This document shows, piece after piece, positions 1-30,308 of a stretch of DNA of 41,498 bases. The notes beneath the pieces are model-generated. The model was given only the letters and a program-made list of their open reading frames with translations. It did no database searches and had not been told where the DNA came from. Position 1 is the stretch's first letter. The number at the start of each line of letters is the position of its first letter. Origin of the DNA: Rickettsiales bacterium (GTDB lineage Bacteria > Pseudomonadota > Alphaproteobacteria > Rs-D84); contig JAITQO010000008.1 of the NCBI GenBank assembly GCA_031288835.1, forward strand, positions 1 through 41,498. The letters run 5' to 3'. Both the position numbers and the translations under genes were made by a program.

Positions 1-176
1 GTCCCGAATCCGAACAGTTCCGCGGGGTTCGTATTATTCGTAGAGATATAAATCGCTCCGACAGGATATATGCTCCTGATAGAACCGCTGTATAACTGGC
101 ACAGTTTCTCAGCAGGCGCATGCGATATTATCAACGCAAGAGCGAAAGTCAAAATCAATATCTTTGCTGTTCTCAT
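1..176 (-). CDS. Secreted protein, 5' part only (cut by window edge)
   Basis: The first 58 codons of a gene running off the left edge. The start is the ATG at 174-176. Residues 1-22 form a typical signal peptide (MRTAK, then a hydrophobic run ending SHAPA), so the product should be exported. The mature part contains YPVGAIYIS followed by NTNPAELFG, a motif I know from phage tail or baseplate-associated proteins, where it precedes a GTWE-type sequence. Finding it behind a signal peptide is odd. The gene lies about 40 bases downstream of a structured RNA with a terminator hairpin, so that element could control it. The function of the whole protein cannot be judged from this fragment. Confidence 0.6.
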   Translation of the reverse strand, partial: MRTAKILILTFALALIISHAPAEKLCQLYSGSIRSIYPVGAIYISTNNTNPAELFGFG

Positions 177-215: not shown

Positions 216-243
216 TAAAAACCACCAAAAAACTGGTGGTTGG
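216..243 (-). terminator. Terminator hairpin ending the structured RNA
   Basis: Read on the minus strand, ACCACC (240-235) and GGTGGT (226-221) form a hairpin with a T-rich loop, followed by a run of T (220-217). It lies 40 bases before the ATG of the secreted protein. It can end a free-standing RNA or act as an attenuator. Its 5' arm overlaps bases that close the long stem of the preceding structured RNA, so the two folds compete. Confidence 0.55.
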
Positions 244-381
244 AGTTTAAGAACAATCCTGAGAATTGCGTGCATTATTCAATATATTCTGCACACTCCA
301 ACCATAAGTTGGAGTATTTTTTGTCCCTTCGGACACCCAGGATAGGGTTCTTAAGCCCAACACAGGAACGCCCTGCGTCAA
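244..381 (-). ncRNA. Structured RNA, four-way junction (unassigned family)
   Basis: Read on the minus strand from about 381. A closing stem pairs 363-347 (GTGTTGG, then CTTAAGAAC) with 254-236. It is continued by an inner stem, 343-336 (ATCCTGGG) with 263-256 (CTCAGGAT). Inside are three consecutive hairpins: 335-322 (TGTCC/GGACA, loop GAAG), 315-295 (ACTCCAAC/GTTGGAGT) and 294-270 (GTGCA/TGCAC). The long-range pairing is extensive and the hairpins abut, which is unlikely by chance. A promoter lies at 388-414 and a terminator at 216-243, giving about 165 nt. That length is close to 6S RNA, but the multibranched fold does not match the 6S rod. I found no SRP GGAAG/AGCAG motif, no tmRNA T-loop and no SAM-I box. 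It is either an independent small RNA or a switch controlling the secreted gene downstream. Confidence 0.5.
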
Positions 382-387
382 TTGAAT

Positions 388-414
388 ATTATAACTTTAT
401 TGAAAAAAATGCAA
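388..414 (-). promoter_or_regulatory. Promoter for the structured RNA
   Basis: Minus strand: a perfect -10 TATAAT (393-388) with -35 TTGCAT (414-409), or ATTGCA one base further, at a short spacing of 15-16. It lies just after the surA-like stop codon. Transcription would start near 381, at the 5' end of the structured RNA. Confidence 0.5.
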
Positions 415-4522: not shown

Positions 4523-6076
4523 ATGTCTGAAATAATATCCATGCCGCGCCAGGATTTGCTGCTTGGCATAAAATCAATCGCCACGGAAAAGATTATCGAC
4601 GAAGAAATCGTATTTGAATCGCTGGAGCAGGCGATTGTCAAAATAGCAAAGCAGAAATACGGCGAGGAATGGAATATTGACGTGAAAATAGACCGCAAGA
4701 ACGGCGCCATCATCGTGCGGCGGCTGTTCGACGTCATCAACAATCCCGCGGAAATCGGCGAGGAATACAACGCGTTCACAATGCTGACCGTCGATGAGGC
4801 GAAAAGATATGCCGAAAGCCCAAAAGTCGGCGATGTGATTTCGGACAGGCTGCCCGAGCCGGATTTCGGCCGTATGGCGTTCCAAACGGCAAAACAGATT
4901 ATGACCGCGCGCGTGCGCGACGCCGAAAAGGGGCGGCAGTATGAAGAGTTCAAAGATAACATCGGCGACATCGTTTCCGGCGTTGTGAAGCGCAACGAAT
5001 ATGGAAACGTCTTCATAGACATAAACGGCAAGGCCGAAGGGTATTTGCGCGCGACGGAACTGATTCCTGGCGAAAGGCTTCAGGTCGGAGACCGCGTGCG
5101 CGCGCTGATTCTCGACGTCGTGCGCTCGAACTCCCAGCCGCAAATCCTGCTCACCCGCACGCACCCGATGTTCATGGAAAGACTGTTCTTCCAAGAGGTG
5201 CCGGAAATATACGAGGGACTGATTAAAATCCGCTCGGTCGCTCGCGCGCCGGGCAGCCATGCGAAAATCGCCGTGTCGACGGACGACCCGTCCATCGACC
5301 CGGTCGGAATGACGGTCGGAATAAAAGGAACCCGCATCCAGCCGGTAATCAACGAATGTCATGGCGAGAAAATAGACGTGATATTGTATTCGGACGACCC
5401 GGCGCCATACATAGTGAACGCGATTTCGCCGGCAAAGGTCGCGCGAATTGTGGTCGACGAAGACACCCACACCGCGATTGTCGTCGTGAACGAAGACCAG
5501 CAGTCGTTGGCAATCGGACGCCGCGGGCAGAACGTGCGCTTGGCGTCCCACCTGACCGGATGGAACATCGACGTCATGAACGAGCAGCAGGAGCAGGAGC
5601 ATCGCGCGAAGGAGACCAAGGAAAAAACGGAACTGTTCATGGCCGGCCTGGACGTCGACGAGATGGTTGCGAAAATCCTGATTGGCGAGGGATTCCGGAC
5701 GATAGAGGAAATAGCGTTCGTCGATATTTCTGAACTGGCGGGCATAGACGGATTCGACAACGACCTGGCGGCGGAAATGCAGAACCGCGCCAAGGCGTTC
5801 ATCGCAAAGAAAGAGAAGGAGTATATTGAGCAGGCGAAGGAACTCAAAATCGAGGATTCGCTGCGCGATTTCGGATTCATAAAGCGCGAGGTCATCCTGA
5901 CGCTCGGGCGCAACGGCGTCCGGTCGATTGAAGACCTCGCCGATTTGGACACCGAGGAGCTGATTGCGATTCTGGGCGCCGACAACATGAGCGAGCATCT
6001 TGCCGGGCGCATAATCATGAAGGCGCGCGAAATCGCATACAATATCGGAGTAGAGGAAGAATCACAGGCGGAATAA
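4523..6076 (+). CDS. nusA: Transcription termination/antitermination factor NusA
   Basis: A 517-residue RNA polymerase-binding factor that controls pausing, termination and antitermination. In order: the N-terminal polymerase-binding domain (1-130), an S1 domain (about 140-200, with GNVFIDINGKAEGYL), KH1 with the GIKGTRIQPV loop (about 270) and KH2 with IGRRGQNVRLA (about 330). Two C-terminal helix-hairpin-helix acidic repeats follow (about 365-500), as in E. coli NusA and of similar length. The ATG follows a strong AAGGAG. infB begins two bases after the stop. The usual neighbours rimP (upstream) and ylxR (between nusA and infB) are absent. Confidence 0.96.
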   Translation: MSEIISMPRQDLLLGIKSIATEKIIDEEIVFESLEQAIVKIAKQKYGEEWNIDVKIDRKNGAIIVRRLFDVINNPAEIGEEYNAFTMLTVDEAKRYAESPKVGDVISDRLPEPDFGRMAFQTAKQIMTARVRDAEKGRQYEEFKDNIGDIVSGVVKRNEYGNVFIDINGKAEGYLRATELIPGERLQVGDRVRALILDVVRSNSQPQILLTRTHPMFMERLFFQEVPEIYEGLIKIRSVARAPGSHAKIAVSTDDPSIDPVGMTVGIKGTRIQPVINECHGEKIDVILYSDDPAPYIVNAISPAKVARIVVDEDTHTAIVVVNEDQQSLAIGRRGQNVRLASHLTGWNIDVMNEQQEQEHRAKETKEKTELFMAGLDVDEMVAKILIGEGFRTIEEIAFVDISELAGIDGFDNDLAAEMQNRAKAFIAKKEKEYIEQAKELKIEDSLRDFGFIKREVILTLGRNGVRSIEDLADLDTEELIAILGADNMSEHLAGRIIMKAREIAYNIGVEEESQAE

Positions 6077-6078
6077 AA

Positions 6079-8409
6079 ATGGCGACATTGACGTTAAAGA
6101 AATCGGTGAACAAGGATTCGGTCGTTTCGAAAAAAGGCGACACGGTTTTTGTGGAGCGCAAGCGGACGATAACGATGCCGGGGCAGAACCTGCTGCGCGA
6201 AGCGCCGAAAACTCCAAACTCGCAAAGGTCGGCGCAGGACGAAAAACTGCGCGCGATTCTGGCCGCGGCGAAGGAACGCGAGGACGAGCGCAGAAAAAAA
6301 CAAGAGGAAGAAGACGCCTTGCGCAACCAGCGCGACATGGAAATCGCGGCGGAAAAAGAAAACTACGCGGCGGTGAAGGAAAAATTGTCCCAATGGCAGA
6401 ACTCGGACAAGCCCGAGACGGACGAAGCCGCGCGCAGGTTCAGCCCGGTCGCCCCGAAAAAGTTCGAAGCCGAGGACGCGCAGAAAAAAGAAAAGAAAAA
6501 AACGACCGACTTTTCCAAACGAAAAATCTCCGTCCGCGACATCGTCATGGATGACGGCGCCGACGATGTGGAGCTGCGCGAAGAGCATCGCCGCAGCGAG
6601 GCGTCGATACGCAGATTCCGCGAAAAGGCGCGCGCGATGTTCAGACCGGCGCAGAAAATCGAGCGCGAGGTTACAATCGGAGATTCAATCACCGTGAAGG
6701 ACTTGGCGCTGGGAATGGCGGAAAAGGTCGGAAACGTCATAAAGAAACTGATGGAAATGGGCATGATGGCTTCGCAGAACCAGTCTCTCGACGCGGACAC
6801 CGCGGAACTGGTCGCGACGGAGTTCGGAGCGAAGATAAAGCGCGTTTCGGAAAAGCCGTTCGCGGATTTGCTGGAACAGGAGCCGAATCCGGAAAACATG
6901 AAGCGGCGCGCACCGATAATAACTGTTGTCGGCCACGTGGACCATGGAAAAACATCGCTTCTCGACGCGTTCCGCGACGCAAACGTGGCGGCGGGCGAGG
7001 CTGGCGGAATCACGCAGCATATCGCGGCATATGAGGTTAAATCAAAATCCGGAAAAATGATTACCTTCCTAGATACCCCGGGGCACGAGACATTTTCGGC
7101 GATGCGGGCGCGCGGCGCGCAACTTGCCGACATAGTCGTTCTGGTCGTCGCGGCGAACGATTCCGTAAAGCCGCAGACCATCGAAGCGCTGAACCATATC
7201 CGCGCGGCAAAGGTTCCGTTCATAATCGCGATAAATAAAATAGACCTGCCCAACGCGAATCCGCAAAAGGTGAAAACCGATTTGCTGCAGCATGAGGTTC
7301 AGGTCGAAGACATGGGCGGCGACGTCCAATCCGTCGAAATATCCGCAAAGGACAAAATCAATCTGGATAAACTGGAAGATGCGATTTTACTGCAGGCGGA
7401 CATGATGGACCTTAGGGCCGATTCGGACATGCCGGCGCAGGCGGTGGTGGTAGAGGCTAAAATGGACAAAGGGCTCGGCGCCACCGCGACGGTTCTGATG
7501 AAACAGGGAACCCTCAAAATCGGAGACGTGTTCGTCGTGGGCGAAACGTGGGGACGCGTCCGCGGGCTCGTCAGTTCCGCGGGCGTCCGGGTAAGGGAAA
7601 TAAAACCGGCCGAGCCGGCTGTGATTCTGGGATTGTTGGCTGTTCCGCTCGCAGGAGATGAATTGCGCGGGCTGGAAACCGAAGCGCAGGCGCGCGTGGT
7701 CGCCGCATACCGCGCCGAAAAGGCGAAGTCGCTGGCGAACGTCGCGAAGAAATCGTCGCTGGAGGAACTGTTCGCCCACAAGGACGAGGCGAAAAAAATG
7801 TCGCTGCCGGTGGTGCTTCGCGCCGACGCGCAGGGCTCGGCCGAGGCAATCCGCGACATGCTTTCCGACATCGAATCGGACAAGGCGAAGATTGAAATCA
7901 TGTCCGCCGGCGTCGGTCAAATCACCGAAAGCGACGTGCGCCTGGCCGCGGCGTCGAAAGGAATCATCATCGCGTTCAACGTGCGCGGCGACGGGACGGT
8001 GCGGGACCTTGCGCGGGAGCTTTCCGTCGACATCAGATACCATTCGATAGTATATCGAATAACTGACGAGCTGAAGGAAATACTTGCGGGCAAACTTGCG
8101 CCGGAGCGGAGGGAAAACTTCATCGGATATGCCGACGTCATTGCGCTGTTCACCGTCGGCAAGGGCGTCCGCGTCGCCGGCTGCCGCATCAGCGAGGGAA
8201 CCATAAAACGCGACGCGAACGTTCGGTTGCTCCGCGAGAACGTCGTAATTTACGACGGAAAAATCGGAATGATGAAACGCGAAAAGGACGAGGTGAAGGA
8301 GGCCGGCAAAGGGACGGAGTTCGGAATGAGCTTCGACAAATACAACGACCTCTCCGTCGGAGACCGCGTGGAATGCTATGAAATCGAACAGGTAAAGGCG
8401 ACATTATGA
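6079..8409 (+). CDS. infB: Translation initiation factor IF-2
   Basis: A 776-residue GTPase that brings initiator tRNA to the 30S subunit and promotes subunit joining. A highly charged N-terminal region (1-190) is followed by an IF2-N domain (about 195-250, starting [10 protein letters not shown]). The G domain has GHVDHGKT (about 285), DTPGHETF (G3) and NKID (G4). Domain II, domain III and the fMet-tRNA-binding C-terminal domain follow, with [12 protein letters not shown] and a final [10 protein letters not shown]. The length is normal. Translation appears coupled to nusA (two-base gap) and to the next gene (ATGA overlap). The usual followers rbfA and truB are not here. Confidence 0.97.
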
Positions 8410-8859: not shown

Positions 8860-9384
8860 ATGAGTATAGCATTGGAAATCGAGGATGTTGTTTCGGAATA
8901 CATGCTGGCCATGAAAACGACCAAAATGTATGGCTTTGAGTTCAGCCTAACGTGCGACGCGATTCGCGGGCTGCCGGAAGGCAAAGACATAATCATACTG
9001 TCAAACCGCGATTACTGGCGCCGATTTAAATCCAAATATCACGATATATTCAATATTGAAGAATGCGAAGACGATTTTTCTATTGAAATAACCCTGAACA
9101 ATCATTGTAATCATAATTCATTGCGACGACACTTCACAGCGTTTATGCCGACAAATCTGCATAACAGCATACTAAAAGCCTTGACAAGAGAAGAATTCAA
9201 AAGGCTGGCCGAAAGCAAAAAACTGGAACATAAGGAAAGTATCGGGCATTTAGAAAAGTCCATCAAAAATAAATATGCGTCCATATTATTGCAAAAGGAA
9301 CAAAAATTGAAAGAACTGCATCGCGAAGTCAAGCGGCTTAGAACGGCTGTCAAGGAACTGAATACGCCCCAGACGACGCATTAA
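8860..9384 (+). CDS. Unknown protein with C-terminal coiled coil
   Basis: A 174-residue soluble protein that I do not recognise. The N-terminal two thirds is a mixed alpha/beta sequence with aromatic and acidic residues (SNRDYWRRFKSKYHDIF, then IEECEDDFSIEITLN). From about residue 115 it is a continuous charged helix with heptad-like leucines, likely a coiled coil (KLEHKESIGHLEKS, LQKEQKLKELHREVKRL). It has no signal peptide or membrane segment. It lies 49 bases after the PPC gene, with only a weak AAGAG before the ATG, and is more A/T-rich than infB. It ends 31 bases from the convergent secG. Its origin may be recent or foreign, which is inference. Confidence 0.65.
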   Translation: MSIALEIEDVVSEYMLAMKTTKMYGFEFSLTCDAIRGLPEGKDIIILSNRDYWRRFKSKYHDIFNIEECEDDFSIEITLNNHCNHNSLRRHFTAFMPTNLHNSILKALTREEFKRLAESKKLEHKESIGHLEKSIKNKYASILLQKEQKLKELHREVKRLRTAVKELNTPQTTH

Positions 9385-30116: not shown

Positions 30117-30308
30117 CTATCCGCCGTAGCACCTCCGCAGGAAAGTATCGCCCCAATACAGCCTGAATTTCGCGCCCGGGCGCGATTTGCGCGCCTCGGC
30201 AAACAGCTCTTCCGCGGATTTGCCCGTCTTTCCTATGCTACAAATCGCGCCTATTTTCGAATCTCCCAAAACGTATTTCTTTTCATTATTCTGCATGTTA
30301 GTTTCCAT
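30117..30308 (-). CDS. 63-residue unknown protein between rpsL and rpsG
   Basis: A small frame in the str operon, where rpsL and rpsG are normally adjacent. The ATG at 30308 has GGCGGGAC upstream, and a second Met four codons in is possible. It is polar and basic: KYVLGDSKIGAICSIGKTGK, then an acidic helix (SAEELFAEARKSR) and RLYWGDTFLRRCYGG. It has no membrane segment. It ends 53 bases before rpsG. It shares a GAIC stretch with the 64-residue frame before rplX and a Tyr-Gly-Gly end with the 74-residue frame before rplE. Both are too short to prove kinship. Confidence 0.6.
   Translation of the reverse strand: METNMQNNEKKYVLGDSKIGAICSIGKTGKSAEELFAEARKSRPGAKFRLYWGDTFLRRCYGG

Follow-up and report, generated by a model that had tools for sequence, protein, structure and literature searches.

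In the ZTP and fluoride riboswitches, a long-range pseudoknot strand and the terminator compete for one segment of the RNA. The C4 antisense RNA of phages P1 and P7 is a leader RNA located 5′ of antirepressor genes, and it contains two short complementary segments. Another small RNA, sRNA-Xcc1 (Rfam RF02221), has been mapped in Xanthomonas with a length of 88 nt (PMC2996969). It forms a tandem of five copies in Xylella (PMC12189769), and is found upstream of symE in Xanthomonas integrons as well as in integron cassettes (PMC12444791).

We analyzed a 41,498-nt stretch of DNA (the window; contig JAITQO010000008.1 of assembly GCA_031288835.1) from a Rickettsiales bacterium of the Rs-D84 lineage, and found a predicted leader RNA of about 190 nt on the minus strand, in the interval bounded by the end of a SurA-like ORF (whose stop codon is at 425) and the start of a secreted-protein gene (176). 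With a probability of roughly two in three, this RNA acts in cis as a transcription-attenuation leader, belongs to a set of about a dozen or more paralogues in the genome and is a distant, longer relative of sRNA-Xcc1. Its parts and the adjoining gene are as follows.

388–414, minus strand: promoter, read from the sequence as TTGCAT (414–409), a 15-nt spacer and TATAAT (393–388)
359–379, minus strand: 5′ hairpin H0, with an 8-bp stem and the pentaloop GCGUU (family consensus GUGUU)
345–358, minus strand: a-b-a′ element, GGG-C-UUAAGAAC-CC, in which a is GGG (358–356), a′ is CCC (347–345) and b is the 5′ strand of the closing stem P1
257–342, minus strand: stem P2, c (342–338) with c′ (261–257)
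322–335, minus strand: hairpin H1, variable and missing in some homologues (for example L047 and L026)
308–315, minus strand: segment A (ACUCCAAC), which forms hairpin H2 as A:B in the predicted terminated state
295–303, minus strand: segment B (GGTTGGAGT, GGUUGGAGU), the exchanged strand, which can pair either with A (upstream) or with C (downstream)
270–294, minus strand: hairpin H3, with the near-invariant loop GAAUAUAUUGAAUAA
254–268, minus strand: d-d′ stem, CAAU (268–265) with AUUG (257–254), enclosing c′
247–254, minus strand: b′ (GUUCUUAA), the 3′ strand of P1
238–246, minus strand: segment C (ACTCCAACC, ACUCCAACC), predicted antiterminator with B or base of the terminator
216–241, minus strand: intrinsic terminator, AACCACCAG-UUUU-UUGGUGGUU-UUUA, with the hairpin at 241–220 and the U tail to 216
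3–176, minus strand: putative regulated gene for a secreted protein, with a signal peptide and then a Gp10_C-like start (PF21939, 5e-8), cut by the contig end

A preliminary description of this DNA had proposed an RNA with its own promoter and terminator, exact complementarity between B and C, an overlap of C with the terminator arm and a position before a secreted-protein gene. All of these held: the coordinates of B and C were confirmed exactly, C supplies the terminator base, and the ATG at 176 lies 40 nt past the U tail. C had been placed within the closing stem, which was wrong, because it directly follows the closing-stem strand b′. The proposed junction of a closing stem and three hairpins stood, and hairpin H0 and the a-a′ pairing were added to it. 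The promoter spacing is suboptimal in the window copy (15 nt, with a poor −35 box) compared to 17 nt in other copies, and across homologues the position of a TATAAT-like box peaks 32–34 nt 5′ of the core. H0 is present in 178 of 189 copies. The minimum free energy of the leader is −68.1 kcal/mol, against −40.5 ± 3.8 kcal/mol for shuffled sequences (z = −7.3), and 0/200 shuffles were as stable. The SurA-like label of the ORF ending at 425 comes from its context and a signal peptide, and the Pfam search of this ORF gave no match. Near the start of the same ORF (425–1255), low-complexity GACAAGAG / TTGTTTC repeats at 1143–1222 render its start codon uncertain and gave chance miRNA matches.

The RNA had been described as a single one; it is real, and it is one of 13 copies that a search with R1, a covariance model built from 41 copies, found in the window genome. 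When 60 relatives were searched at the DNA level, 9 copies turned up in the window genome and many per genome across the family. With R1, at least one copy was detected in 137 of the 142 genomes of the family (the Enterousia/Rs-D84 gut alphaproteobacteria), in all 13 genera, and the highest copy number was at least 30 in one genome (30 candidates scored); the genome searches are species samples, and the copy numbers are lower bounds. Weaker R1 matches were found in 11/18 genomes of the rest of the order, matches in 5 other genomes in the rest of the class, and in the phylum sample 2/299 genomes matched, both of them family members. The carriers are gut, rumen and termite Alphaproteobacteria, including Candidatus Enterousia intestinigallinarum. 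Enterousia is placed in the order Rs-D84, whose bacteria have genomes of about 1 Mb and lack the TCA cycle and the respiratory chain (PMC12306168). A search for similar DNA among plasmid sequences found none. Three IMG/VR matches looked like host genes adjoining prophage genes, and a viral origin of the window-type copies was rejected. At 9000–12000 of L246, a prophage-like stretch with lysozyme-like and methylase-like ORFs and a phospholipase-D-like nuclease adjoins a leader copy. Tandem arrays of up to five promoter–RNA–terminator–RBS units (~240 nt each) precede one small HTH gene at L110 3958–5043, and arrays also occur in L147, L135, L081, L104, L092 and L009, with neighbouring units differing in their b and c codes. 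Such arrays of complete promoter/terminator units (five in L110) are odd for a simple leader.

A gene with an SD sequence and an ATG was located downstream on the same strand in 128 of the 165 copies with enough flanking sequence, versus 21 in the mirror control, and the start codons clustered 35–55 nt (about 45 nt) past the motif. In G035, a single-contig genome in which every copy was read, nearly all of the about 26 copies lie immediately 5′ of a gene. By a simple signal-peptide rule, 81 of 151 distinct downstream proteins look secreted, and the Pfam matches are mainly to small helix-turn-helix (HTH) proteins and to outer-membrane or surface-antigen domains. Judged by their position, the copies mostly appear to act as gene leaders for secreted or outer-membrane proteins or small HTH regulators. 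The window gene has paralogues with the same leader on contigs 5, 9, 11 and 13 of G000. These secreted paralogues, like the window gene (3–176), begin with AxKLCQL, and two have a phage Gp10_C-like part. Several contigs end inside AxKLCQL paralogues; the assembly is thus interrupted by these repeats.

We evaluated covariation in alignment A5 (73 copies), in which B was not used for selection and which is the basis for the conservation of B; alignment A2, whose copies had been retrieved by a pattern fixing B, was left out of that judgement. The results showed that P1, P2, H1, H2 and H3 were jointly 94.8% paired, with changes on both sides in 28/29 pairs, and that no shuffled or slid control came near the observed stem covariation score. 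For single stems, P1 was 92.9% paired (both-side changes in 7/7 pairs), P2 93.7% (5/5 pairs covarying) and H3 97.5% (5/5). A:B was 96.6% paired with 6/7 pairs covarying, B:C was about 97% paired with covariation in 7/8 pairs of its main run, and the A:B and B:C covariation score was reached by 0/500 shuffles. At four columns, A, B and C changed together among the 73 copies: from A-U-A (49 copies) to G-C-G (14) at column 59, from A-U-A (55) to U-A-U (12) or C-G-C (1) at column 60, from U-A-U (65) to C-G-C (4) at column 63, and from C-G-C (47) to U-A-U (8) at column 64. Since the three segments covary in concert, selection keeps both A:B and B:C. This covariation bears out the mutually exclusive folds of the preliminary description, which involve a strand shared with the terminator, and the compensatory changes that this description had suggested looking for in relatives were strong across 73 to 127 homologues. 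Two further pairings lie outside the model used for alignment: a and a′, which flank the 5′ strand of the closing stem, covary and are 94–97% paired, and d-d′ covaries with a pair swap from A-U (42) to U-A (25) in A5 and from U-A (68) to A-U (48) in A2. Either these stems form two interlocking pseudoknots or they replace P1 and P2 in an alternative fold, and covariation does not tell these options apart.

A terminator was found in 172 of 186 homologues, and in 155 of these 172 it overlaps C by 3–4 nt. In the window, the terminator hairpin has a computed energy of −12.2 kcal/mol with C and −3.8 kcal/mol without it, A:B has −10.9 kcal/mol and the B:C duplex −13.9 kcal/mol. As in a riboswitch, to which the preliminary description had compared it, the RNA is the 5′ leader of a gene and contains an expression platform; a ligand is hypothetical. 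We propose that these observed features (the elements and their conservation, the concerted A/B/C covariation, the overlap of C with the terminator and the position before genes) would work as a switch, to which a default-off state, a direction and a driving ligand or factor are added by inference. The RNA would be transcribed from its own promoter, and A would pair with B on emergence, leaving C free to build the terminator. The segments are transcribed in the order A, B, C; therefore the default should be A:B plus the terminator, that is, off, and from the energies and the folding order transcription is expected to stop before the gene. In unconstrained nested folding the probability of B:C was zero, so the antiterminated state would be reachable only with help. 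A signal may stabilise the pseudoknotted core (a-a′, b-b′, c-c′, d-d′ and H3) and release B, the freed B would pair with C, and the terminator would lose its base, allowing the polymerase to continue into the secreted-protein or HTH gene.

Several candidate signals and factors were rejected. GGDEF was absent in 9/9 and RelA/SpoT in 8/8 of the family genomes tested, which removes c-di-GMP and ppGpp as universal signals. The DAC domain, unusual for Alphaproteobacteria, occurs in 83/142 family genomes and is absent in the copy-rich, 97–98% complete genomes G032, G060 and G064; because it is patchy and missing from such genomes, c-di-AMP was rejected as a universal signal as well. This patchily distributed c-di-AMP synthase domain is located at 431071–431421 of contig C1 in G035 and occurs in 82 other family genomes. 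A leader for antitermination by a NusG paralogue (RfaH/LoaP) was rejected on finding a single NusG in each of 11 genomes.

The Rfam search proposed in the preliminary description placed the window RNA in no family at threshold. Its label of an unassigned RNA holds in this respect, but it missed the distant link to sRNA-Xcc1. The window copy itself gave no RF02221 match at E ≤ 10. Divergent copies from other families matched RF02221 over the full length with 27.5–35.7 bits (E 0.0045 to 0.38; threshold 53), as in the full-length model alignments of L181, L178 and L182, and the 3′-half architecture of RF02221, namely the B:C stem, H3 with AAUA/GAAUA and the d-d′ hairpin, was found. RF02221-like matches occurred in 10/10 copy-bearing genomes, the best with 50.4 bits (E = 2e-8 for the genome), against 2/14 control genomes with matches below the cut-off. 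Some of these matches fall on R1 copies, such as the one at 5450–5525 on contig 1 of G006 (E = 6.2e-6), which coincides with the R1 copy at 5455–5583. Because RF02221 does not recognise the window copy, the connection to sRNA-Xcc1 runs through intermediates. Homology at the superfamily level is well supported but formally below the Rfam threshold, and for this reason the window RNA is not filed as a member of sRNA-Xcc1. G035 also contains a second RNA type with the same layout, nearer to sRNA-Xcc1 (30187–30271, 111251–111341, 343001–343092, 448390–448481 and 6061–6153). Among the five read, a gene starts on the same strand at 36–40 nt in three (two secreted) and at 118 nt in one, and one has no gene by the start rule.

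Phage and plasmid sRNA-Xcc1 cores scored 63–86 bits. In annotated phages an antirepressor gene follows about 40–45 nt after the core (ant in Aaphi23, KilA-N in Acinetobacter phage 4316, ant in Rac-SA53). In IMG/VR contigs and annotated phage records together, 76 distinct downstream proteins start 35–77 nt after C, and most of them are P22_AR, KilA-N, pRha, AntA, ORF6N or Bro-N proteins. Upstream of these cores we found the a-b-a′-c element of the window type again: a:a′, b:b′ and c:c′ pair jointly (≥5 bp) in 41 of 63 unique loci, whereas 40 partner swaps gave 9.2 on average and never more than 14. A promoter-like site is located mostly 12–21 nt before this 5′ half (31/47 loci vs 8% in shuffles). 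Loci with an antirepressor-type gene ~45 nt on and an unannotated 5′ half include L257 1198–1282, L258 1186–1269, L259 1186–1269 and L261 1185–1270, and more than 70 IMG/VR loci (L265–L384) have the 5′ half and antirepressor context. R1 gave one weak in-place match on the phage loci (L315, E = 0.068), so the phage link rests on the RF02221 matches and the shared layout. From these data, the Rfam family looks like the downstream (3′) half of a longer leader that acts in cis, and the window RNA would represent a lineage of it that has been expanded and rearranged. A literature search for sRNA-Xcc1 together with antirepressors found no paper in the collection searched. We would put forward only tentatively the wider possibility of a new class of metabolite- or signal-sensing leader, with sRNA-Xcc1 as its 3′ half, that gates antirepressors and so prophage induction in temperate phages and was co-opted in Rs-D84 gut bacteria to switch the secreted and surface proteome genome-wide.

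In the phages, a terminator-like hairpin with a T-run lies between the two halves in 80/95 loci, usually without a T-run after C. Its loop is most often CCCGUYAGY. This conserved 9-nt loop, followed by T5–T7 (for example in L262 and L259), is kept independently of B; as a counterpart of A it was rejected because it stays unchanged when B changes. With the terminator between the halves and not after C, the phage mechanism may differ. The arrangement would suit antisense control like that of C4, in which a short leader RNA silences the gene by pairing through b/b′ and c/c′ with a target mRNA leader, whether in cis or in trans; variable yet complementary b and c codes would then give immunity or paralogue specificity. 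The parting of b and c from b′ and c′ by the hairpin, the antirepressors downstream, the specificity of the codes for their own partners (the 41/63 against about 9 expected) and the differing b and c of tandem copies all agree with it. Nevertheless, the window type has both halves before its only terminator, where a short RNA would form these pairs internally, one and the same b code recurs in many G035 copies, and no C4 Rfam match at E ≤ 0.1 was obtained among eight phage and plasmid relatives. We regard antisense control as unlikely.

A small RNA that stands alone, acts in trans and is multicopy by chance, in line with how sRNA-Xcc1 has been published, is somewhat less probable still. The promoter and terminator of its own, the tandem copies and the mapped 88-nt species (PMC2996969) fit such an RNA, but the near-constant 35–55 nt to an SD sequence and start codon on the same strand, in bacteria and also in phages, does not, and the concerted A/B/C covariation is unexpected for a target-pairing RNA. 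A DNA repeat that is mobile or serves as a recombination site (similar to integron attC or to MITEs) and folds as single-stranded DNA would account for the many copies per genome, the tandem arrays, the contig breaks at copies and the occurrence of sRNA-Xcc1 in integron cassettes (PMC12444791). Multicopy repeats are told by inconsistent orientation and transposase neighbours (PMC11109978), whereas here the orientation to the gene is consistent (128 vs 21), the promoter spacing is fixed and the terminator is U-tailed; this very improbable reading is already largely refuted. Leader-peptide attenuation of the trp type, with a ribosome stalling on A to free B for C, follows from the logic of A:B plus C:terminator versus B:C, but has practically no likelihood, as an SD-preceded ORF ends near A in just 4/186 copies and the core lengths fall across all three residues modulo 3.

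If the attenuation leader is confirmed, what Rfam lists as a trans-acting sRNA would belong to a larger switch that acts in cis, the many copies of sRNA-Xcc1 in phages, plasmids and integrons would have to be reinterpreted, and antirepressor genes would gain a common RNA control element. In Rs-D84 bacteria, a single RNA logic would govern some 3% of the genes, the regulon consisting of secreted proteins and HTH regulators, and what these dependent bacteria sense would become directly testable by a cell-free transcription assay.

Compared with known systems, 6S RNA (RF00013), a match to which the preliminary description had named as evidence against its claim, is alike in a length near 190 nt and a long closing stem, but the test with RF00013 gave no match. 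The trp-type attenuators share the four-segment logic of 1:2 and 3:4 versus 2:3, whereas the leader described here has no leader peptide. ZTP and fluoride riboswitches resemble it in the competition between pseudoknot and terminator; their sequence and layout are unrelated, and the window-type leader differs in preceding surface and HTH genes. From C4 it differs in having both halves before one terminator, without Rfam similarity. With sRNA-Xcc1 it has in common the B:C closing stem, H3 flanked by AAUA...GAAUA, the d-d′ hairpin whose loop holds c′, a b′ strand that immediately precedes C, the occurrence in multiple copies and in tandem arrays, and the position upstream of a gene. The Rfam model of sRNA-Xcc1 comprises 87 nt and is described as a trans sRNA, whereas the window type, at about 190 nt, adds H0, a-b-a′, c, A and the terminator after C to that model.
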